IMG/VR virus record: IMGVR_UViG_3300030503_000573
Coordinates: 1-64,000 of that record
Source: a virus
DNA length: 64,000 nt
Reading direction: 5' to 3' (one strand)
Positions 9,981 through 47,685 of the stretch are shown in pieces. The position numbers were made by a program, and so were the translations under genes. The notes under the pieces are model-generated. The model was not told where the DNA came from. It saw nothing but the letters and a program-made list of their open reading frames with translations, and made no database searches. Numbering within the stretch: position 1 is the first letter of the stretch; every line of letters starts with the position of its first letter.

Positions 9981-10004
9981 GCGCCGGCCCTCCTGGGCTT
10001 CGTG

Positions 10005-10595
10005 CTACGCCGCGCGCCTCGCCGGGGCCTTGCCGCCCCGCTTGGGGCCGCCCTTCGGCGGAGCCTCACGGCGAACGCGGATGCCCTCCTCCAGGCGGGG
10101 GCCGTCGTCGTTGTCGCTCGGGCCCTCGACCTGCTCAAACTCGACGTCGACCTTGTCGGGCACCGCGATGTCGGTGTTCATCGCGGCGTTCATCTCCTCG
10201 ACCTGGTGCACGATGGCGTCAGACGAGACGATGGCCGCGTTGCGGCGGCGCACCTGGCCCTCGTGGGCCTTGAGGCCCTTGTTCATGCGGAAGATGTCGT
10301 TGATCTGGTTGGCCGTCATCTGGCGGCCCTCCTGGTAGATCAGCGTCACCACCGCGCGGCTCCGCTTGGCCTCCTCGGGCGTCTTGGCCCCGTAGGTCTT
10401 GAGCTGCTCGATGATCTCCGAGACCTGGGGCGGGGCGAGGTCGCCGTGGATGGGCTGCTGCTCGCCCGGGCGCAGGGGGGTGTGCTTGTTCCCCTGGAGG
10501 CGCGGGTTGAGCGGCATGCCGTCGGCGGCGAAGTCCAGGCGGTAGTAGAACCGCTGGTGCTGCCGGGTCGGGTTGGCGAGGAAAATCTTGGTCAT
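10005..10595 (-). CDS. Hypothetical head-region protein (196 aa)
   Basis: Directly downstream of the major capsid gene. N-terminus KIFLANPTRQHQRFYYRLDF and PRLQGNKHTPLRPGEQQPIH look like a folded domain; the C-terminal ~50 residues are charged and then strongly basic (PKGGPKRGGKAPARRAA), suggesting nucleic-acid contact. Similar proteins follow the capsid gene in related phages but their role is not known to me. Confidence 0.55.
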   Translation of the reverse strand: MTKIFLANPTRQHQRFYYRLDFAADGMPLNPRLQGNKHTPLRPGEQQPIHGDLAPPQVSEIIEQLKTYGAKTPEEAKRSRAVVTLIYQEGRQMTANQINDIFRMNKGLKAHEGQVRRRNAAIVSSDAIVHQVEEMNAAMNTDIAVPDKVDVEFEQVEGPSDNDDGPRLEEGIRVRREAPPKGGPKRGGKAPARRAA

Positions 10596-38383: not shown

Positions 38384-39348
38384 TGAGCATCAGCATGAGA
38401 GGCTGGACCTACGGGGCCGAGCACGAGTTCGTGGACTGGCCACGGTCGAGGCCGCTCCCTGCGGGGTGCACCGCCCTGACGAATGAGTACACCATCGTCA
38501 ACTCGACCGGGGTGGCGACCGACCCGCACCACGACCCGGCCCGGCGCACCTACGCCTGGGGCCACGAGGTCAACACCCCGCCGACCGACGACATCGGGGG
38601 CCAGGTCGGCATCATGATGGAGCTGCTGGAGGCGCTGCCCGAGGCCCGCGTCAACTACCGCTCTGAGCTCAACATCCACATCCGGGTGCCAGGCCTGCGA
38701 GACGACCTCGCGGCGCTGAAGCGCCTCGCCGACTACAACGGCCGCCACCTGAGGACCGCCGTCGAGCTGGTCGACCCCATGAGCCCCCCGGTGCGCTCCC
38801 TGGGCATGACCGACGACGAGTGGGAGGGCGCCAAGCGCAACTACGTGGTGCGCCGCAACTTCCAGCACCGGGTGCTGCCGCCCGACCGCACGGCCCGCCA
38901 GCTGGCGGCTGCCACCACCACTGAGTTCTTCGAGGCCGAGGTGCCGAAGGCGAGGGGCAACGGCCGCCCGATGTGGCACGCCCAGCCCCGGTGCGCGGTA
39001 AACCTGCGGCAGCTGCTGCAGACCGACACGGTGGAGTTCCGCCACTGGGCGGGGACGCTGAACGCCGGCTTGTTCCAGAACGCTGGGCTCTGGTGCATGT
39101 TGTACCTGCGAGGAGCCCTCTTCGATCCTGATACTGCGCCAACAGCTCTGTGGAATGGAATGGCGAGCAGCTTGTTAGAATTCCCACCCCAGCACCCCTA
39201 CGAGCACTGGAAGGAGCGTCGTTTCCGCGCCACCACCCACGACGGCTCCAACCGCCGTGACGAGATTCTACGCAACATCGCGGCCATCGAGAGCGGCGAG
39301 TTCGACGACCTGCCCGAGTCGGTCGCACCTAGGAGGCTGCCGCTGTGA
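38383..39348 (+). CDS. Amidoligase (COOH-NH2 ligase), 321 aa
   Basis: Matches the phage amidoligase family: WTYGAEHEFVDWPRSR at the N-terminus, WGHEVNTPPTDDIGG, LNIHIRVPGLRDDLAALKR, and a C-terminal LRQLLQTDTVEFRHWAGTLN. These enzymes are related to glutamine synthetase/ATP-grasp ligases and join a carboxylate to an amine with ATP. It opens a run of genes (FAD enzyme, PanD) that look like a small-molecule or base-tailoring pathway. ATG shares a base with the prior stop; GTGA overlap with the next gene. Confidence 0.75.
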   Translation: MSISMRGWTYGAEHEFVDWPRSRPLPAGCTALTNEYTIVNSTGVATDPHHDPARRTYAWGHEVNTPPTDDIGGQVGIMMELLEALPEARVNYRSELNIHIRVPGLRDDLAALKRLADYNGRHLRTAVELVDPMSPPVRSLGMTDDEWEGAKRNYVVRRNFQHRVLPPDRTARQLAAATTTEFFEAEVPKARGNGRPMWHAQPRCAVNLRQLLQTDTVEFRHWAGTLNAGLFQNAGLWCMLYLRGALFDPDTAPTALWNGMASSLLEFPPQHPYEHWKERRFRATTHDGSNRRDEILRNIAAIESGEFDDLPESVAPRRLPL

Positions 39349-40193
39349 CGCGCATCGACGTAGCCGTCATCGGCGGGGGCCTGTTCGGGCGCACCATCGC
39401 GGCCGAGATGTGGGCCCAGGGACGGGAGTGTCAGGTACTCGACGACGCGCGGCCCTGGAGGGGCTCGGCCCCGGCCGCCTGCCTGATGCGGCCAAGCTGG
39501 TTCTCCAAGATGGAGAGGGGCGAGTACGTCGCCTCGATGGACCGGCTGGACCGGCTGTTCGGGGTCAAGAAGGTCAGGTTCGAGACGCCCGCAGGGCCGG
39601 CCGACCTGGACTGGGTGGACCCAGCCGTGGTGATGCGGCCGGACGCCTGTGTCATACCGGCGACGGTCACCGACATCTGGCGCGGCGAGGGCTACTGGGC
39701 GCTCAGCGTCAACACAGGACAGCCGGTCCACGCCCGCTCGGTCGTCGTGGCCACCGGCGTTTGGGTGCCGGAGCTTGTCAGGACGCCCCACAACATCACC
39801 GCCCTCGGCGGGTGGGCCGTGACCTGGGCATGGCCCTACGAGCGCCAGCAGGGCCCGAGCCGCCTGGAGCCGTGGGCTCCCTACAAGCAGCTCATCGGCT
39901 TCCAGCGGGGGGCTTGGGAGTGGTGGGCCGGCGACGGCACGGCGCTCCTCCCGGGATCGCTCACGCCAGAACGGCGCGACGCCTCCGAGAACCGCCTCCT
40001 GGCCTTCGGCAAGCGCCTTGGCCTAGCGGGTGTCGCCAGCATCACGGGCGGCCTCCGGCCGAAGGTTCCCGGGCTGCGCGCGCCGGCCCTCGTCGAGGAG
40101 GTCGCGCCCGGCCTGTGGATCGCGACCGGCGGCGCAAAGAACGGAACCCTTGGCGCGGCCTGGGCCTCGCTCCAGCTGAAGGACAGGCTCTAG
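39345..40193 (+). CDS. FAD-dependent oxidoreductase, DAO-like (282 aa)
   Basis: N-terminal Rossmann FAD motif IDVAVIGGGLFGRTIAAEMW, followed by QVLDDARPWRGSAPAACLM. The middle has VVVATGVWVPELVRTPHN, and the end ITGGLRPKVPGLRAPALVEE and WIATGGAKNGTLGAAWASL, as in the second dinucleotide contact of glycine oxidase/DAO enzymes. Such FAD enzymes act on glycine-derived side chains in known thymidine hypermodification pathways. GTG start overlaps the amidoligase stop (GTGA), giving strong coupling. Substrate is unknown. Confidence 0.75.
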   Translation: MTRIDVAVIGGGLFGRTIAAEMWAQGRECQVLDDARPWRGSAPAACLMRPSWFSKMERGEYVASMDRLDRLFGVKKVRFETPAGPADLDWVDPAVVMRPDACVIPATVTDIWRGEGYWALSVNTGQPVHARSVVVATGVWVPELVRTPHNITALGGWAVTWAWPYERQQGPSRLEPWAPYKQLIGFQRGAWEWWAGDGTALLPGSLTPERRDASENRLLAFGKRLGLAGVASITGGLRPKVPGLRAPALVEEVAPGLWIATGGAKNGTLGAAWASLQLKDRL

Positions 40194-40559
40194 ATGCGCT
40201 TCGTGCTCCGCTCCAAGCTCCACAACGCCACGGTCACCGAGGCGAACCTGCTGTACGTGGGCTCGATCACCATCGACGAGCACCTCATGGAGGTCGTCGG
40301 CCTGTGGCCCGGCGAGCGCGTGCTGGTGGTCTCCAACACGAGCGGGGCCCGCCTGGAGACCTACGTCATCACCGGCGACCGCTACTCCGGGGCGATCTGC
40401 ATGAACGGGGCCGCCGCCCACCTCATCTCGGCCGGCGAGCAGGTCATCATCATGGGCTTCGAGCTGGCCGAGCGGCCCATCACACCGGCCGTGGCCCTGT
40501 GCACGCCTAATAACCAGGTAGCACGCATGCTAAGCGAAATCTCAGGAGAGTTCCTATGA
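40194..40559 (+). CDS. panD: Aspartate 1-decarboxylase PanD (121 aa)
   Basis: Converts L-aspartate to beta-alanine with a pyruvoyl group made by self-cleavage. Sequence is clearly PanD: KLHNATVTEANLLYVGSITI with catalytic Lys8, Tyr21 and the Gly23-Ser24 cleavage site; Arg53, Thr56 and Tyr57 in GARLETYVITG; and MNGAAAHLI with Asn71. All active-site residues known from E. coli PanD are present at -1 numbering. ATG begins right after the FAD gene stop. A phage panD inside a base-modification-like cluster is unusual; beta-alanine could feed the amidoligase or CoA synthesis. Confidence 0.9.
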   Translation: MRFVLRSKLHNATVTEANLLYVGSITIDEHLMEVVGLWPGERVLVVSNTSGARLETYVITGDRYSGAICMNGAAAHLISAGEQVIIMGFELAERPITPAVALCTPNNQVARMLSEISGEFL

Positions 40560-40729
40560 TCCAAGCCCTCGTCATGGCAGTGATGCTGTGCGCGCTAGTG
40601 GTGGTCACCGCCAAGGTGCTGACCCTGCTGCTGCGCCTCGTGCTGGTGCTCGCCGGCATGGCGGTGCTGGCCGTGCTCGGGGCAGCCACATTCCTCATCA
40701 CGCTCGCCGCGTCTGTTGCGAGCGCCTAG
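40556..40729 (+). CDS. Very hydrophobic small membrane protein (57 aa)
   Basis: ATGA overlap with panD. Almost entirely hydrophobic: VMAVMLCALVVVTAKVLTLL and LRLVLVLAGMAVLAVLGAAT, then ITLAASVASA; predicted two transmembrane helices or a hairpin. Role unknown; it separates panD from the pilin gene. Confidence 0.5.
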   Translation: MIQALVMAVMLCALVVVTAKVLTLLLRLVLVLAGMAVLAVLGAATFLITLAASVASA

Positions 40730-40779
40730 AGACCCGCGCGCGGCGGCTTCCGCGCACAGCAAGAAGGAGGACTACGACT

Positions 40780-40938
40780 ATGGACAAGATCATGAGCTAC
40801 CTGGGCGACGAAGGCGGTGCCAGCGCCGCTGAGTACGCCTTGATCCTGGCGCTGATCGCCCTGGTGATCATCGTCAGCGTCACGACCCTCGGCACCAACA
40901 TCAACGGTGTCTTCTCGCACGCTGCCAAGTCTATCTGA
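40780..40938 (+). CDS. Flp/Tad-type type IVb prepilin (52 aa)
   Basis: A short leader (MDKIMSYLGDEGG) ends in Gly13, followed by mature ASAAEYALILALIALVIIV, placing Glu at mature position 5 and Tyr at position 6 exactly as in Flp pilins cleaved by the TadV/CpaA peptidase. The remainder (TLGTNINGVFSHAAKSI) is the short Flp tail. Start ATG 40780 has AAGAAGGAGG 9 nt upstream; a 50 nt gap precedes it and a GC hairpin follows at 40951. Expected to enter the inner membrane and be processed as a pilin. Highly atypical in a phage. Confidence 0.8.
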   Translation: MDKIMSYLGDEGGASAAEYALILALIALVIIVSVTTLGTNINGVFSHAAKSI

Positions 40939-40950
40939 CGCGGCGCGGCG

Positions 40951-40973
40951 GCCCGGGGTGGTGAGCCCCGGGC
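40951..40973 (+). repeat. Hairpin after pilin gene
   Basis: GCCCGGGG, 7 nt loop TGGTGAG, CCCCGGGC: perfect 8 bp stem just downstream of the pilin stop. No T-run, so possibly a partial terminator or 3' stabiliser insulating the pilin message from the next gene. Confidence 0.55.
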
Positions 40974-40982
40974 GACTACCTT

Positions 40983-41543
40983 GTGAATCATATGGAGTTC
41001 TCAGACGTGGCCAGGGCGATGTTCTACGACAGCTATCAGGACGAAGTGAGGGACTGGATGCTCCAGACCTTCCCGCCCGAGGTCTGCCAGGACCGGGTCG
41101 AACGCGCCGACCGCCTGCTGGAGGAGGTCTTCGAGCTGCTCCAGAGCGGAGGCTACGACCCGGCGCGGGTCGCAATGATCCGCGACTACGTCTGGGGCCG
41201 ACCGGTCGGCGAGCCGGCGCAGGAGGTGGGTGGTGTCGCTGTGACCCTCGCGGCCTACTGCTGGGTGCACGGCCTTGACTACGAGGCTGCTGCCAGGGCC
41301 GAGGTGGCCCGGGTGTGGACCATGATTGATGTCATCCGCAGGAAGCAGGCGGCCAAGCCCAAGGGGAGCCCGCTGCCGGTCGCGGTGGACCACCCGGCGG
41401 AGGCTCCTGTATCCAGAACAGCTGTCATGATATTTGGACAGCCTAAGCTGTACTATGAGGTCTACGAATGCGATCCTCGTGATGGCGCGATGTGGACTGA
41501 TGAGCGCGTCACGTCATGGTTTAGAGGCGAGCCGCTGCCGTGA
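40983..41543 (+). CDS. MazG-like NTP pyrophosphohydrolase (186 aa)
   Basis: All-alpha MazG-type enzyme: ERADRLLEEVFELLQSGGYD with the E-x-x-E metal ligands, GEPAQEVGGVAVTLAAYCWV with a further Glu, and an IRRKQAAKPKGSPLP tail that recurs in phage MazG-like proteins. Expected to hydrolyse dNTPs to dNMP and PPi, shaping the nucleotide pool. Start is GTG 40983 or ATG 40992 (183 aa); the first is only weakly preferred. C-terminal 40 residues extend beyond the MazG fold. Confidence 0.75.
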   Translation: MNHMEFSDVARAMFYDSYQDEVRDWMLQTFPPEVCQDRVERADRLLEEVFELLQSGGYDPARVAMIRDYVWGRPVGEPAQEVGGVAVTLAAYCWVHGLDYEAAARAEVARVWTMIDVIRRKQAAKPKGSPLPVAVDHPAEAPVSRTAVMIFGQPKLYYEVYECDPRDGAMWTDERVTSWFRGEPLP

Positions 41544-41935
41544 CCAGAACCGTCCCCCGCACCTCGCCCCCGCTCGACCTGGAGCTGGTCGCGCGCACCC
41601 TGCGCACCGCCACCTACCGGGCCTGGATGCTGAGCCTGACCAACAACCGCATGGCCGTGCGCTCCTACGAGGAGATGAAGGCCCCGGAGGTCGGGCAGAT
41701 GGTCGTCGAGCTGACGACCATCTGGGCGCGTGCGTTCGACCTCAAGGGCGTCGGGGAGCTGGTGCTCGTAGCCCAGGAGAGGATCGACCTCGGCGGTGAG
41801 CCCTGGGACGAGGTCTTCCAAGGCACCCCGTGCCCGACCGAGCCAGTCTACTACGTCAAGAACCTAGACGGCACCGTGACCCGCTGGACGAACTGCCAGC
41901 TGCTAGCCTGCCCAGCAGACCTGGGGCTAGTCTAG
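41540..41935 (+). CDS. Hypothetical protein (131 aa)
   Basis: GTG 41540 overlaps the MazG stop. Contains LELVARTLRTATYRAWMLSL and MKAPEVGQMVVELTTIWARA, helical, and a C-terminal EPVYYVKNLDGTVTRWTNCQ. No family recognised. Confidence 0.45.
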   Translation: MTRTVPRTSPPLDLELVARTLRTATYRAWMLSLTNNRMAVRSYEEMKAPEVGQMVVELTTIWARAFDLKGVGELVLVAQERIDLGGEPWDEVFQGTPCPTEPVYYVKNLDGTVTRWTNCQLLACPADLGLV

Positions 41936-41940
41936 CACCC

Positions 41941-42261
41941 ATGACCCGCCCCATCCACTTCACCCCGGCCGACGTCGAGCGCTTCCTGAGCTTCGTCGTG
42001 CCCGCGCTTGACGGCTGCCACCACTGGGCAGGTGGCACGAGCTGCGGTGGCCACAACACGAGCGAATACGGCTCGTTCTGGGTGGACGGGCGCGGGGTGC
42101 GTGCCCACATCTTCGCCGCCGTCGCGCTGGGCGACGGGCACGCGCCGGGCAACCACGTCGACCACCTGTGCGTGACGTCGCTGTGCGTCAACCCAGCCCA
42201 CCTGGAGGACGTGCCCCCGCCGGTGAACCAGGCGCGGAAGCTGGAGCGGCGGAGGCGTTGA
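41941..42261 (+). CDS. HNH endonuclease, zinc-binding type (106 aa)
   Basis: Compact HNH_3-like protein: CHHWAGGTSCGGHNTSEYGS, then VRAHIFAAVALGDGHAPG, HVDHLCVTSLCVNPAHLEDV with the H-D-H-L-C and N-P-x-H-L signature. Short length suggests a stand-alone homing or packaging-type HNH. Interrupts the modification cluster between MazG-like and aGPT-like genes. Confidence 0.75.
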   Translation: MTRPIHFTPADVERFLSFVVPALDGCHHWAGGTSCGGHNTSEYGSFWVDGRGVRAHIFAAVALGDGHAPGNHVDHLCVTSLCVNPAHLEDVPPPVNQARKLERRRR

Positions 42262-42578
42262 TGGCCCACCCCTCCACCCTCATGGCCATCGCGGCTGGCG
42301 ACTACCGCCTGTTCTGGGTGCGGGTTGGCCCGACCTCGGCGCACACCGCGTGCTGCTGCCCGGCCCACGCCCTCGACAAGCTGGTGATGATCGGCGTGCT
42401 GCGCAGCGACGGCCGCCACCCGGCCGAGGGCGGCGAGATTGACGGCCGGTTCGTGCACTGGTTCTTGGCCCACCCAGAAGACCTCGACCGGCCGATGGGG
42501 CAGGGCGAGGTCGACTTCATCCAGGCCGCGTGCGAGAGCGCGGGGCTGAGCAGCATCGTGAGCGAGGCGAGGAACTAG
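42261..42578 (+). CDS. Hypothetical Cys/His-containing protein (105 aa)
   Basis: Shares a base with the HNH stop. Contains VRVGPTSAHTACCCPAHALD and FVHWFLAHPEDLDRP; the CCCP run could bind metal. No family recognised. Confidence 0.45.
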   Translation: MAHPSTLMAIAAGDYRLFWVRVGPTSAHTACCCPAHALDKLVMIGVLRSDGRHPAEGGEIDGRFVHWFLAHPEDLDRPMGQGEVDFIQAACESAGLSSIVSEARN

Positions 42579-42580
42579 CA

Positions 42581-43477
42581 ATGATGGAAGTCGAAGACTT
42601 TGGCCGCCTGCTGATCGAGACCGGCGACCTCGACCCGGTGTACGTGGCGCTGAACCGCATGCGTTGGCCGGGCGGGTTCGCCCAGAGGGACCGCTGGCTG
42701 CAGGCGTACTGGTGCTGCTACCACGTGGGGGCCAGCTGCTGGCTCGCCGAGGTTCCGGACTTCTGGGGCTTCATGCGGCTGGCCGCCGTCAACGAGCGGC
42801 CGTCTCCCCTGGGCGGCCGGTGGCCCAGGGCGGCCGAGCGCCGCCACTGGCGGGGTCAGGCAGCCATAGACAGCGTCAACGACCTGGAGCGCCGCTACGG
42901 CAACCCGAACGCCCCTGACAAGAGCTGGTCCATGGTGCGGTACTGCGGCTTCGACGTCGAGCGGGAGGACATCCACCAGCCCAAGGTCCCCCTCGCGCTG
43001 ATTGAGGCCCGCGTCAAGGAGCACACCGGCTTCGGGCCCTGGATCGCCTTCAAGGTCGCCGACATGCTGGAGCGGTGCTGCGGGGTGCCGGTCGAGTTCG
43101 GCAACGCGCCGATGTTCTACGACAGCCCGAAGAAGGCCGCGCTGGCGCTGTTCAAGATGAGGGCCGGCCTGCCAGCCGCTGCCAAGGTCAAGGACGAGCT
43201 GGGGGCCATCTCCCAGGTCTCAGCCCACCTGCTGCGCACCATAGGCGACCTGGAGGCCCCCGGCGGGGGCCGGGCGTGCGGGCTGCCCGAGGTCGAGACC
43301 GTGCTGTGCAAGTGGGGCTCCCACCTCAGCGGCCACTATCCGCCGGGGAAGGACATCGCCGAGATTTATGAGGGGCTGTCCGAGTGGGAGACAGTCAGCC
43401 CGCTGGCCAGGAAGTTCCTCGCGGCGATGCCTGTTGACCAAGCAAAGCTGCTAGGTGCGGCCCCGGCTGCGGCCTAG
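42581..43477 (+). CDS. DNA-glycosylase-like aGPT-Pplase family protein (298 aa)
   Basis: Resembles the alpha-glutamyl/putrescinyl thymine pyrophosphorylase families that act on modified thymine in DNA. Diagnostic phrases: DPVYVALNRMRWPGG, RDRWLQAYWCCYHVGASCWL, MRLAAVNERPSPLGG, FGPWIAFKVADMLERCCGVP and ALFKMRAGLPAAAKVKDELG, a helical HhH-glycosylase-like fold. Predicted to transfer an amine or amino acid to a pyrophosphorylated hydroxymethyl-dU in DNA. ATG 42581 preferred. Adjacent to three P-loop kinases. Confidence 0.65.
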   Translation: MMEVEDFGRLLIETGDLDPVYVALNRMRWPGGFAQRDRWLQAYWCCYHVGASCWLAEVPDFWGFMRLAAVNERPSPLGGRWPRAAERRHWRGQAAIDSVNDLERRYGNPNAPDKSWSMVRYCGFDVEREDIHQPKVPLALIEARVKEHTGFGPWIAFKVADMLERCCGVPVEFGNAPMFYDSPKKAALALFKMRAGLPAAAKVKDELGAISQVSAHLLRTIGDLEAPGGGRACGLPEVETVLCKWGSHLSGHYPPGKDIAEIYEGLSEWETVSPLARKFLAAMPVDQAKLLGAAPAAA

Positions 43478-43503
43478 GTTAACCACTGACATAAGGAGCT
43501 CAC

Positions 43504-44142
43504 ATGGGCTGGGTACTCAACATACGCGGGACCAACGGGTCAGGGAAGAGCCACCTCGTGCGCTCGATGCTGCCGACGCCTGAGTATAGGCCAAATGTTA
43601 ACCTAGCCCGCTACGACTCACCGACGAAGCGCTACCCTGACCGCAAGAATGTAGTACCAGGGTATGTACTCAGTGAGCGAGACCTCGGACTGTTTGGTGT
43701 TGTTGGCTCCTACGAGACCCCGACAGGCGGCCTCGACGGAGTGCCAACATTTGCGGCTCAGATCGCGAGCTGTGCTCAGCTGCTCAACGACAACGAGTGC
43801 TGTACAGTCCTCGCCGAGGGCGTGCTGGCCTCCACGGTCTTCGGAGCCTGGGGCGCGTTCGCCGATGACCTCTCGCGGTTATCTCGACACCGTATGGCGT
43901 TCCTCTACATGAGCACGCCGGTTGACGTATGCCTGATGCGCATCACCGAGCGCCAGATTAAGGCCGGTCGCATCAGGGATATCAACGAGCAGCTGGTGCG
44001 CGACAAGGTGCGGGCCGTCGCCGCGACCCGCGAGCGGGCGCTGGCCGCCGGCCACGCGGTGTTCGACCTGCCGTTCGGGCTGGAGCGCGTGGCGCTGACT
44101 GGCATCATGCGCGGCGACATGGAGAGCTACCGTGGGAACTAG
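43504..44142 (+). CDS. P-loop kinase, 5-hmdU DNA kinase-like, paralogue 1 (212 aa)
   Basis: Preceded by CATAAGGAG. Walker A IRGTNGSGKSHLVR; central ERDLGLFGVVGSYETP; a TVLAEGVLAS element likely holding a catalytic acid; and FLYMSTPVDVCLMRITERQI as a lid/Walker B-like region. Small single-domain kinase. By comparison with known systems it would phosphorylate 5-hydroxymethyl-dU in DNA. More divergent from paralogues 2 and 3 than they are from each other. Confidence 0.7.
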   Translation: MGWVLNIRGTNGSGKSHLVRSMLPTPEYRPNVNLARYDSPTKRYPDRKNVVPGYVLSERDLGLFGVVGSYETPTGGLDGVPTFAAQIASCAQLLNDNECCTVLAEGVLASTVFGAWGAFADDLSRLSRHRMAFLYMSTPVDVCLMRITERQIKAGRIRDINEQLVRDKVRAVAATRERALAAGHAVFDLPFGLERVALTGIMRGDMESYRGN

Positions 44143-44761
44143 GCTGATAATCAACCTGCGTGGGCCCAACGGGGCCGGCAAGACGACGGTGGCCCGGGGG
44201 TTCCTGGAGCACAAGACTATCGACCTGGAGCCATACAGATACATCAACTCTGAGGGTCGAAGCAGAAGCTGGCCTATAGCCCAATGCAAGGCGCCAGGCC
44301 TCCAGCTGCCTATCTACGTGCTTGGACGCTATGATGTCCAGCAGGGCGGCTGTGACACGGAGAAGGACATGGACGCCATAGAGCGCTGCGTCCAGTGGGC
44401 CGTGGACAACCTCACCGATGGTCACATCTTCTTCGAGGGCTTCGTGGTCTCCAAGAGCGGCGGCCGGTGGCTGGAGTTCGCCGGGCGCAACGAGCGGGCT
44501 GGGAAGGGTCGCTACGTCTGGGCCTTCCTGAGGCCCAACCTCAACGAGCTGGAGGCACGCATCAAGGGCCGCAATGGCGGCAAGGAGGTCAAGCTTCCAC
44601 TCCTTGACAACACGATGCGCACAGTTGACCTCATTCGCAACAAGGCAAAGGCCCTCGTCACCGACCGCCGGTTCCTGGTGGACCTGGACTGGCAGCTCAG
44701 CGCGCCCATGGTTACCGAGCAGCTGATCCTACGCTTACAGCAGCTGGAGGCCGTCCGATGA
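44132..44761 (+). CDS. P-loop kinase, 5-hmdU DNA kinase-like, paralogue 2 (209 aa)
   Basis: GTG 44132 overlaps paralogue 1 by 11 nt. Walker A NLRGPNGAGKTTVARG; middle IYVLGRYDVQQGGCDTEKDM and VDNLTDGHIFFEGFVVSKSG, where FFEGF carries the probable general base Glu; then YVWAFLRPNLNELEARI. Shares the GRYD..GGCD and H-[IL]-F-F-E-G-F pattern with paralogue 3, indicating tandem duplication. Confidence 0.7.
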   Translation: MGTRLIINLRGPNGAGKTTVARGFLEHKTIDLEPYRYINSEGRSRSWPIAQCKAPGLQLPIYVLGRYDVQQGGCDTEKDMDAIERCVQWAVDNLTDGHIFFEGFVVSKSGGRWLEFAGRNERAGKGRYVWAFLRPNLNELEARIKGRNGGKEVKLPLLDNTMRTVDLIRNKAKALVTDRRFLVDLDWQLSAPMVTEQLILRLQQLEAVR

Positions 44762-45384
44762 CTACCCGAGTCATCGTCAACATCAGGGGTGCCAACGCCA
44801 GCGGCAAGACGACGCTGATGCGCCGCGTGATTGGGTCTGCGCCATACGTAGACCTAGGCCAGTTTCCAGACGCCCAGGGGAAGATGGGCTTCGTCCAAGG
44901 CCACCAGTTCTCGCTGGAGGGGTTCGAGCTGCCCTTCCTGGTCATCGGCCGGTACGATGCGTCCAAGTACTCGGGGTGCGACAAGATCAAGAGCGCTGAC
45001 CAGATCGAGGGGGTGTTGCGCTGGGCCATAGACGGCGGCTTCGCCGGCCACGTCCTCTTCGAGGGCTTCCGGGTCTCCAAGAGCTGGGCCCGCTTCGCCG
45101 CCGTGCGCAACTGGTGCGTGAGCAACCATCATGCCAGCTGGGTGTGGGCCTTCCTGCGCGCCGAGCCCGAGCTGATCTTTGAGCGCTCGGCCGCCCGGCG
45201 CGAGGCCGACGCGAGGCCCATTGACAAGGAGGAGCTCGCGGCAGTGTGCCGGGTGATGGCCTCCACCTGGCGCAAGGCCAAGGTGGCGATGCCACGAGAC
45301 TGCCTGGACCTGGACGCCTCGCAGCCGACCGAGGTGCTGTACGCGCAGCTGCTCGGGCGCATCAAGATGCTGGAGTCGGCGTGA
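44758..45384 (+). CDS. P-loop kinase, 5-hmdU DNA kinase-like, paralogue 3 (208 aa)
   Basis: ATGA overlap with paralogue 2. Walker A NIRGANASGKTTLMRR; FLVIGRYDASKYSGCDKIKS; WAIDGGFAGHVLFEGFRVSK; WVWAFLRAEPELIFERSAAR. Close relative of paralogue 2. Consecutive duplication with maintained motifs argues each paralogue is under selection and may act at different steps (for example mono- then pyrophosphorylation), which is inference. Confidence 0.7.
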   Translation: MTTRVIVNIRGANASGKTTLMRRVIGSAPYVDLGQFPDAQGKMGFVQGHQFSLEGFELPFLVIGRYDASKYSGCDKIKSADQIEGVLRWAIDGGFAGHVLFEGFRVSKSWARFAAVRNWCVSNHHASWVWAFLRAEPELIFERSAARREADARPIDKEELAAVCRVMASTWRKAKVAMPRDCLDLDASQPTEVLYAQLLGRIKMLESA

Positions 45385-46373
45385 TGGACGTCGGCCCGCT
45401 GGTCGCCTGGGTGAATGAGCGCGAGGCGGTGCGGCTTAGGAAGGCTATCATTGCTGCTGGCGTTGACAGCTGGGGCCTAGAAGCCGGCTCCCTCACTCGT
45501 GATGTCTGGGGCGAGCATCCCAGAGACTACTGGCAGCTGGGTCACCTCACCGACGACCCCATCCTTCAGCAGTTCAAGTTCTGCAACGTCCGCCGCGAAG
45601 ACGACCGGGTGACTGTCTGGGTTCGCGAGCACATCAGGGAGCCGTATGCCGACCAGCAGCACCTGTGGCTCATGCTGGCCATCGCGAGGACGATCAACTG
45701 GCCCCCGGCGCTGCTGGAGCTGATCAGGGGCGGAGCCGAGGGCGTGTCCTCGTTCCCCAACATGCAGGACTTCGATCCGCGCTGCATGGCCCAGGTGCTG
45801 GAGGCGCGGCGGGCGCGTGGCGAGAAGGTCGAGACCGGCGCGTACATGATCAGGGCGGAGAGCCGGAAGGACAAGCCCTGGTACAGCTGGTCGAAGCAGC
45901 GGTATATCGCAGAGATCGTGATTGGCCATCTCTGGTACATGCGGGCCAGCTGGAAGCATGACTTTGAAAAGAAGAAGCTGACTACGCTGGAGCGCACCTG
46001 GGAAATTTTCCAGGAATATGACGGCTGGGGCCCATTCATGGCCTTCCAGGTCATCGTCGACCTCGCACACACCCGCTACCTGCGAGACGCGCCCGACCGC
46101 TCTAGCTGGGCCGCGCTCGGGCCCGGCTCGCGCCGGGGGCTGAACCGGCTGTACGGCCGGCCGGTGACAACTGGGCTGACGCAGGCCCAGGGTCTGGAGG
46201 AGATGCGAGAGGTCCAGGCGGCGGTGAACGCGCCGGGCGTGCTGGCGCCGTGGGTCGAGAAGATCGCGCTGAGCGACATACAGAACTGCTTGTGCGAGAC
46301 GGATAAATACCTCAGGGTAAGGAACGGCGAGGGTCGGCCGAGGGCCCTCTACAAGCCATGGAGTGGGTGGTGA
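45384..46373 (+). CDS. 5-hmdU DNA kinase helical-domain/aGPT-Pplase2-like protein (329 aa)
   Basis: Helical protein with the phrase DPILQQFKFCNVRREDDRVT, VWVREHIREPYADQQHLWLM and YTGAYMIRAESRKDKPWYSW-like middle (here ETGAYMIRAESRKDK), then WEIFQEYDGWGPFMAFQVIV. This pattern fits the helical domain associated with 5-hmdU DNA kinases and the related aGPT-Pplase clade 2. As a stand-alone protein next to kinases it may form a complex with them or carry out the transfer step. ATG shares a base with the previous stop. Confidence 0.65.
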   Translation: MDVGPLVAWVNEREAVRLRKAIIAAGVDSWGLEAGSLTRDVWGEHPRDYWQLGHLTDDPILQQFKFCNVRREDDRVTVWVREHIREPYADQQHLWLMLAIARTINWPPALLELIRGGAEGVSSFPNMQDFDPRCMAQVLEARRARGEKVETGAYMIRAESRKDKPWYSWSKQRYIAEIVIGHLWYMRASWKHDFEKKKLTTLERTWEIFQEYDGWGPFMAFQVIVDLAHTRYLRDAPDRSSWAALGPGSRRGLNRLYGRPVTTGLTQAQGLEEMREVQAAVNAPGVLAPWVEKIALSDIQNCLCETDKYLRVRNGEGRPRALYKPWSGW

Positions 46374-46375
46374 GC

Positions 46376-46597
46376 ATGATCAATCGGATCAACCAGCTTA
46401 TGGTGCGAACCCGATGCTTTGCTGGCCTCCACCCTCGGGTAATCTCTGGTCGAGGGATGTGGGGCGACGCTGGCACCTGCCTGGTATGCGGAGCCGACGG
46501 CTATGGCCTCAAGGGCCTTCACAACACAGACCTCGCCGATGCAAGCGAAGATGACCGAGAGCGCCTGAGGGTGCTGGACGAGCAGAGGACGGCCTGA
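46376..46597 (+). CDS. Hypothetical small protein (73 aa)
   Basis: Probable start ATG 46376 (alternatives GTG 46370 or ATG 46358, no clear ribosome site decides). Has a CLVCGADGYGLKG zinc-like pair and RTRCFAGLHPRV. Ends in a TGATG overlap with the thymidylate-synthase homologue. Function unknown. Confidence 0.4.
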   Translation: MINRINQLMVRTRCFAGLHPRVISGRGMWGDAGTCLVCGADGYGLKGLHNTDLADASEDDRERLRVLDEQRTA

Positions 46598-47685
46598 TGC
46601 ACACCATCCACGCCCGCAACGTCAACGACGCCCTACACGCCGGCCTGATGCTGGTCCACAGCCACGGCATCCCGGAGACGAGCCGCAATGGTCCGGTCCT
46701 CCGCGTGCCCGAGCCGGTGGCCACCGTGTACGCCCGGCCGTGCGAGCGCGTGCTGATCCAGCCGTGGCGCGACGCCAACCCGTTCTTCCACCTCGTCGAG
46801 GCCTTCTGGATGCTCGCCGGGCGCGACGACCTGCGGCAGCTGACGCCCTACGTGTCCCGCATGAGGGAGTTCTCCGACGACGGCGGGGTGACGCAGCCCG
46901 GGGCGTACGGGAAGCGGTGGCGCGATCACGTCAAGAGCCCTTTCCTGGGCGGCATCGACCAGCTCAGCTGGGTAGCCGGGAGGCTTAGAGAGGACCCCAG
47001 CGACCGGCGCTGCGTCATTCAGATGTGGGACGCCAGCGTGGACATCCACAAAGCGTCCATCGGTGGCAACGACGCCCCGTGCAACCTCACGGCCACGCCC
47101 TACGTCGCGGCCGGCGCGCTCCACCTCGCGGTGTTCTGCCGCTCCAATGACATCATCTGGGGCGCATACGGCGCCAACGCGGTGCACTTCTCGGTGCTGC
47201 TGGAGTACCTGGCGGCGCGGGTTGGGGTGCCGGTCGGGACATACACGCAGGTGAGCATCAACTACCATGCCTACCTCAGCACCTTCCCCAAGGTCATGCC
47301 GGTCGAGGCGGCGCAGCCGTACAGCGTGAGCGGATTTGACGCCCTTCAACCCATACCTATGTTTTCAGAATGGTTGGTCGGCGGCGAAGATCGGGAATGC
47401 GAGCGCATCTTCCAGGAGGACCTCAGGGTCTTCTTCGAGGAGGGCCCCTTCGCCTACGCCACCGCCGGGCGCATTCCCTTCATGCGCCGGGTGCTGGTGC
47501 CTATGTGCCTGGCCCACCAGCACTGGCGCACGAAGAAGGGCGAGGACCGCTACCTCGGCGCGCTGGAGATTCTGCGCAGCTGCGCCGCGCCGGACTGGCG
47601 CCGGGCCGCCGAGGAGTGGGTTGGCCGCCGGTACGACAGGTGGAAGCTCGCCGCAGACGACGGAGCCCACGATGCTGAGGGATAG
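46597..47685 (+). CDS. Thymidylate synthase homologue, likely dUMP hydroxymethylase (362 aa)
   Basis: Thymidylate-synthase fold with NDAPCNLTATPYVAAGALHL (catalytic Cys in DAPCNL), FCRSNDIIWGAYGANAVHFS (the R-S-x-D phosphate site and a dUMP-type Asn), and VSINYHAYLSTFPKV. Phage members with this pattern act as dUMP or dCMP hydroxymethylases, making 5-hydroxymethyl nucleotides for incorporation. The Asn favours dUMP. It ends the modification cluster. Overlaps the next gene by 14 nt. Confidence 0.7.
   Translation: MHTIHARNVNDALHAGLMLVHSHGIPETSRNGPVLRVPEPVATVYARPCERVLIQPWRDANPFFHLVEAFWMLAGRDDLRQLTPYVSRMREFSDDGGVTQPGAYGKRWRDHVKSPFLGGIDQLSWVAGRLREDPSDRRCVIQMWDASVDIHKASIGGNDAPCNLTATPYVAAGALHLAVFCRSNDIIWGAYGANAVHFSVLLEYLAARVGVPVGTYTQVSINYHAYLSTFPKVMPVEAAQPYSVSGFDALQPIPMFSEWLVGGEDRECERIFQEDLRVFFEEGPFAYATAGRIPFMRRVLVPMCLAHQHWRTKKGEDRYLGALEILRSCAAPDWRRAAEEWVGRRYDRWKLAADDGAHDAEG

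Follow-up and report, generated by a model that had tools for sequence, protein, structure and literature searches.

Why should a phage encode the subunit of a bacterial pilus? The question is raised by a short open reading frame (ORF) in a stretch of 64,000 nucleotides, referred to here as the window, which corresponds to positions 1 to 64,000 of the IMG/VR virus record IMGVR_UViG_3300030503_000573. A preliminary description, made from the sequence alone, had taken this ORF for a Flp/Tad type IVb prepilin gene in a moron-like cassette, whose product could poison Tad pilus assembly against superinfection or alter the host surface. Here we examine the identity of the gene product, its genomic setting, its recurrence in other viral sequences and the roles it may have.

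The pilin gene and its product

The ORF (Table 1) encodes a protein of 52 residues, MDKIMSYLGDEGGASAAEYALILALIALVIIVSVTTLGTNINGVFSHAAKSI, of which MDKIMSYLGDEGG precedes and ASAAEYALILALIALVIIVSVTTLGTNINGVFSHAAKSI follows the predicted cleavage site. Cleavage would occur between G13 and A14, in the context ASAAEY already pointed out in the preliminary description, and is predicted to leave a mature pilin of 39 amino acids with Glu at position 5 and Tyr at position 6. The cleavage motif of Flp/Tad pilins, G/xxxxE(Y/F) with the slash marking the cut, is present. The product matches Pfam family PF04964 (Flp_Fap) at E 4.5e-13, its score of 49.2 bits exceeding the gathering cut-off (32.2), and a profile search of the whole 73,083-base record found this single Flp_Fap copy (E 9.3e-14). 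A PDB search with the prepilin returned two distinct sequences, both of them Tad pilins, 8u1k (PilA) and 8u2b/8ucr, with E values of 2e-7 and 4.5e-7. The solved mature chains of 8u1k and 8u2b both start at the residue corresponding to A14, in agreement with the predicted cleavage site, and over the aligned mature part 21 of 37 residues are identical to 8u1k. With these PilA-type Flp/Fap major pilins (type IVb/Tad, type IVc) the window pilin has in common the short leader, the cut between G and A, E5-Y6, a single long hydrophobic helix and the segment VTTLGTN; it differs in being phage-borne, in having no adjacent tad genes and in its C-terminal residues. The ORF thus almost certainly encodes a genuine Flp prepilin, as had been proposed.

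The AlphaFold model consists of one helix (residues 11-51, pLDDT mostly >90 in mid-helix), and a structure search with this single-helix model gave no match, a result that is uninformative. No Flp family rose above noise in a PHROGs search. A longer in-frame ORF starting with GTG at 40588 was rejected as the start, since it overlaps another ORF and the Shine-Dalgarno sequence belongs to the ATG.

Table 1. Features of the pilin gene and its surroundings (window positions)
Feature	Position	Strand	Basis or remark
FAD oxidoreductase, kin to that of Pseudomonas phage PaMx11 and similar phages	39345..40193	+	context
PanD-type aspartate decarboxylase	40194..40559	+	TIGR00223 117.7 bits (cut-off 106); Pfam E 1.5e-37
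57-aa hydrophobic ORF	40556..40729	+	directly upstream of pilin gene; overlaps panD stop
Shine-Dalgarno sequence AGGAGG	40765..40770	+	sequence; 9 nt 5' of ATG; strong
Flp/Tad type IVb prepilin gene	40780..40938	+	52 aa; Pfam PF04964 and PDB PilA match
13-residue leader MDKIMSYLGDEGG, predicted substrate of host prepilin peptidase	40780..40818	+	sequence; solved mature PilA begins one residue on
Predicted mature pilin ASAAEY...KSI, single long helix	40819..40935	+	PDB match and structure model
G+C-rich hairpin 3' of stop codon, without T-run	40951..40973	+	fold -27 kcal/mol, z -1.49
phrog_14118 protein, MazG-like by eye	40983..41543	+	context
Amino acid:DNA transferase ADDT (thymine hypermodification)	42530..43477	+	PF18724 E 8.5e-16

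Phage context and genomic setting

The 73 kb record is that of a genuine contractile-tailed phage. The minus strand codes for sheath, portal, large terminase and tape-measure-like proteins, the plus strand for helicases, ribonucleotide reductase, a thymidylate synthase-family enzyme, DNA polymerase and primase. These contractile-tail, head and replication genes in the same record bear out the phage origin of the pilin gene. A search of the record for Phage_integrase gave no match, so that the phage looks virulent. Its best relatives are scattered among Rhizobium, Pseudomonas, enterobacterial and Roseobacter phages, and the host is likely Gram-negative. It is very improbable that the pilin gene owes its place here to a chimeric contig or a host fragment. 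The record is linear and has no end repeats, and another Flp-bearing record, discussed below, does resemble a host fragment; against an artefact, phage operon genes with matching GC3 lie within about 50 bp on either side of the pilin gene, and both arms of the record hold structural and replication genes. Moreover, fragments 99.98-100% identical to the window at 15.2-22.9 kb occur in other metagenomes (L210, L211 and L219) and are the same phage in sibling samples.

The pilin gene lies inside a thymine-hypermodification cluster (window 39345-47685). This cluster comprises the FAD oxidoreductase, the PanD-type decarboxylase, ADDT, hmdU-kinase-like ORFs (three in tandem, with Pfam applied to the first only) and a thymidylate synthase-family enzyme. 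The gene has a strong ribosome site of its own, as the preliminary description had stated. Of the cassette-like flanks described there, the non-coding stretches are short (50 and 44 bp), and a downstream hairpin does exist. The hairpin, however, has no T-run and is ordinary for a genome of 68% GC, and near the gene neither a sigma-70 promoter (consensus scan) nor a terminator-like site was found. The gene lies on the same strand as the surrounding operon, and its GC3 of 0.87 is similar to that of the adjoining phage genes. Since a moron would have its own promoter and terminator, and the hairpin is ordinary, we do not accept the moron cassette for the window copy. It fits well in phiLM21-like prophages: the loci L163-L184 include a group kin to Rhizobium/Sinorhizobium prophages in which the pilin gene is opposite in strand to its neighbours and occupies a variable slot between the terminase and NusG genes. 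In phage phiLM21 itself, the corresponding slot is occupied by tRNA-Met and an HNH gene.

Flp/Tad pilins are usually, not obligatorily, accompanied by a tad locus. Record-wide searches of the window phage found neither a TadA/T2SSE ATPase nor a prepilin peptidase (Peptidase_A24), and the pilin would therefore act only via host machinery, most likely the Tad pathway. A missing tad locus does not exclude membership among the pilins, since 45 of 80 bacterial Flp loci are also without TadA detected within about 6 kb.

By homology, none of 59 ADDT relatives has a Flp pilin, and none was found in those searched record-wide or in the PanD and portal relatives; the portal relatives are mostly fragments, and the ADDT and portal relatives compared include many fragments and none close to the window phage. 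Because relatives of the DNA-modification locus do without it, the pilin appears dispensable. Its absence from these relatives would suit a functionless host gene that the window phage acquired recently, as would the lack of a close homologue of the window pilin. We consider this improbable, in view of the phage-like GC3, the strong Shine-Dalgarno sequence, the intact motif and the purifying selection on the pilins of other phages. Searches of phage and plasmid collections by tblastn with the pilins gave no matches, probably because a query so short and hydrophobic is masked as low-complexity sequence. Flp pilins should occur on plasmids; as the plasmid searches were empty too, the negative result in the phage databases is uninformative on absence.

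Orphan Flp pilins in other viral sequences

The preliminary description had suggested a search for Flp homologues in other phages. IMG/VR was scanned first with the window pilin and then with patterns from four pilin alignments (one reference pilin in alignment A3 served as search seed only; the comparison with PilA uses PDB sequences). Flp pilins were found on about 50 viral contigs, and this recurrence of orphan Flp pilins across viruses is the new element here. None of 49 Flp-bearing viral records, the window's included, has a T2SSE/TadA ATPase, and one has a prepilin peptidase (L158, a short record, probably a piece of host DNA wrongly classed as viral). A single family model detected the large terminase in 21 of 48 Flp-bearing records, and two contigs, L002 and L003, look by eye like ordinary phages, to judge from tail or head genes. 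A single TadA model of our own making found TadA at most about 6 kb from the pilin in 35 of 80 bacterial loci versus 0 of 53 viral loci. As the remaining 45 bacterial loci are also without nearby TadA, orphan status alone is no proof of phage adaptation.

The tree of these short sequences is poorly resolved, also as to the placement of the window pilin, but the phage pilins are polyphyletic: the best tree requires 10 or more label changes, and well-supported branches force 3. Their motif styles are those of different host groups. In several phage groups with comparable pilin pairs, dN/dS is about 0.08-0.29, which indicates that the pilins of those groups are maintained; these values cover the pilins of other phages, no close homologue of the window pilin having been found. 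The recurrence on some 50 viral contigs suggests that phages may repeatedly borrow the Flp subunit to interfere with or alter host pili. On the 47 kb siphovirus-like contig L002, two intact Flp pilin genes stand in tandem (10001-10395); synonymous divergence between them is saturated, and amino-acid changes are few.

The preliminary description had considered a phage pilin undescribed. This was too strong, since Flp pilins are annotated as putative adhesion factors in the Vibrio harveyi prophages phi345 and phiGAN1709 (PMC12482185) and tabulated by annotation in phiLM21-like prophages of S. meliloti (PMC12429752). What stands is that we found no literature report of a Flp pilin in a lytic-looking phage; a phrase search of the literature found no functional study of phage-encoded pilins. 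The V. harveyi and S. meliloti genes are likewise Flp genes in tailed phages with a putative function. Their carriers are temperate, whereas the window phage, 73 kb in size and with a contractile tail, has no recognisable integrase, and its pilin gene, unlike theirs, sits in a DNA-hypermodification cluster.

Possible roles of the phage pilin

The mechanism we prefer, and regard as plausible, would be the poisoning of host pili against superinfection. We put forward tentatively, at a little below even confidence, that the product acts as a decoy pilin in the host Tad pathway, lowering or altering piliation and so limiting superinfection or re-adsorption. The gene would derive from a Tad-piliated bacterium. 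In an infected cell the prepilin would enter the inner membrane, a TadV/CpaA-type peptidase of the host would cleave it after G13, and the product would join the host Tad pilin pool. The foreign subunit might then compete with host pilin or co-assemble into the pilus. Piliation of the infected host would be lowered or altered, and fewer later adsorptions could follow, whether other pilus-dependent phages are concerned or progeny of the phage itself that would attach to debris or pili. The analysis itself establishes the pilin identity, the intact cleavage motif, the phage context, the lack of a recognisable Tad ATPase or peptidase, the recurrence in viruses and, in other phages, purifying selection; processing, co-assembly, the effect on pili and the gain to the phage are inferred.

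The small phage proteins Tip, Aqs1, Zip and Pf4 pVII are established blockers of type IV pili (PMC11656802, PMC11436027), and the outcome proposed here is alike, i.e. fewer or altered pili and superinfection exclusion. They target PilB, PilZ or PilC/PilJ and concern type IVa pili, whereas the window pilin is of the Tad type. That none of these known blockers is itself a pilin counts against the decoy, as does the dispensability of the gene, which is missing from relatives of the DNA-modification locus.

Alternatively, the product may be a functional replacement pilin through which the adhesion or surface of the host is changed and which, as conversion-type cargo, aids the infected population without blocking pili. 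The motif is intact and well conserved, the mature part is near Caulobacter-type PilA, the V. harveyi prophage pilins have been interpreted as adhesion factors (PMC12482185), and L002 carries two pilins in tandem. The gain for a soon-lysing cell is hard to see with a phage that looks virulent, having no recognisable integrase, and we hold this alternative to be unlikely.

Returning to the decoy pilin, its extension to a whole class, in which orphan Flp pilins would be widespread, repeatedly acquired dominant-negative or decoy subunits that hijack host Tad assembly, is more doubtful than the proposal for the window phage. If true, it would amount to a pilus-blocking strategy whose inhibitor is itself a pilin. 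Phages feeding foreign pilins into Tad pili would exert a new control of a major phage receptor and adhesin, and such small natural proteins, easily expressed, could serve as probes of Tad assembly. Prophage Flp genes should not be taken for virulence factors on annotation alone.

A further alternative is a pilin-derived small membrane protein put to another use, holin-like or as an inhibitor of prepilin peptidase that does not enter pili. The product is small, forms a single helix and adjoins the second hydrophobic ORF, and the pilins of L002 and L003 lie near tail or lysis genes. In the window phage, the likely lysis genes are on the minus strand at about 62.2-64.6 kb, some 20 kb from the pilin gene and on the opposite strand, and membership of a lysis cassette was rejected on these grounds. 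Conservation also extends beyond the cleavage site into the pilus-forming helix. We rate such a use as rather improbable.

The 57-aa hydrophobic ORF matches no family above cut-off (one sub-threshold Pfam match) and is possibly a partner of the pilin. The PanD gene abuts the FAD oxidoreductase gene (40193/40194) and was found in 0 of 59 ADDT relatives; the enzyme could decarboxylate a DNA-borne amino acid and not act in pantothenate synthesis. Between the pilin region and ADDT lies an ORF (41932-42261) that is HNH-endonuclease-like by eye and akin to ORFs that several viral contigs carry close to ADDT.
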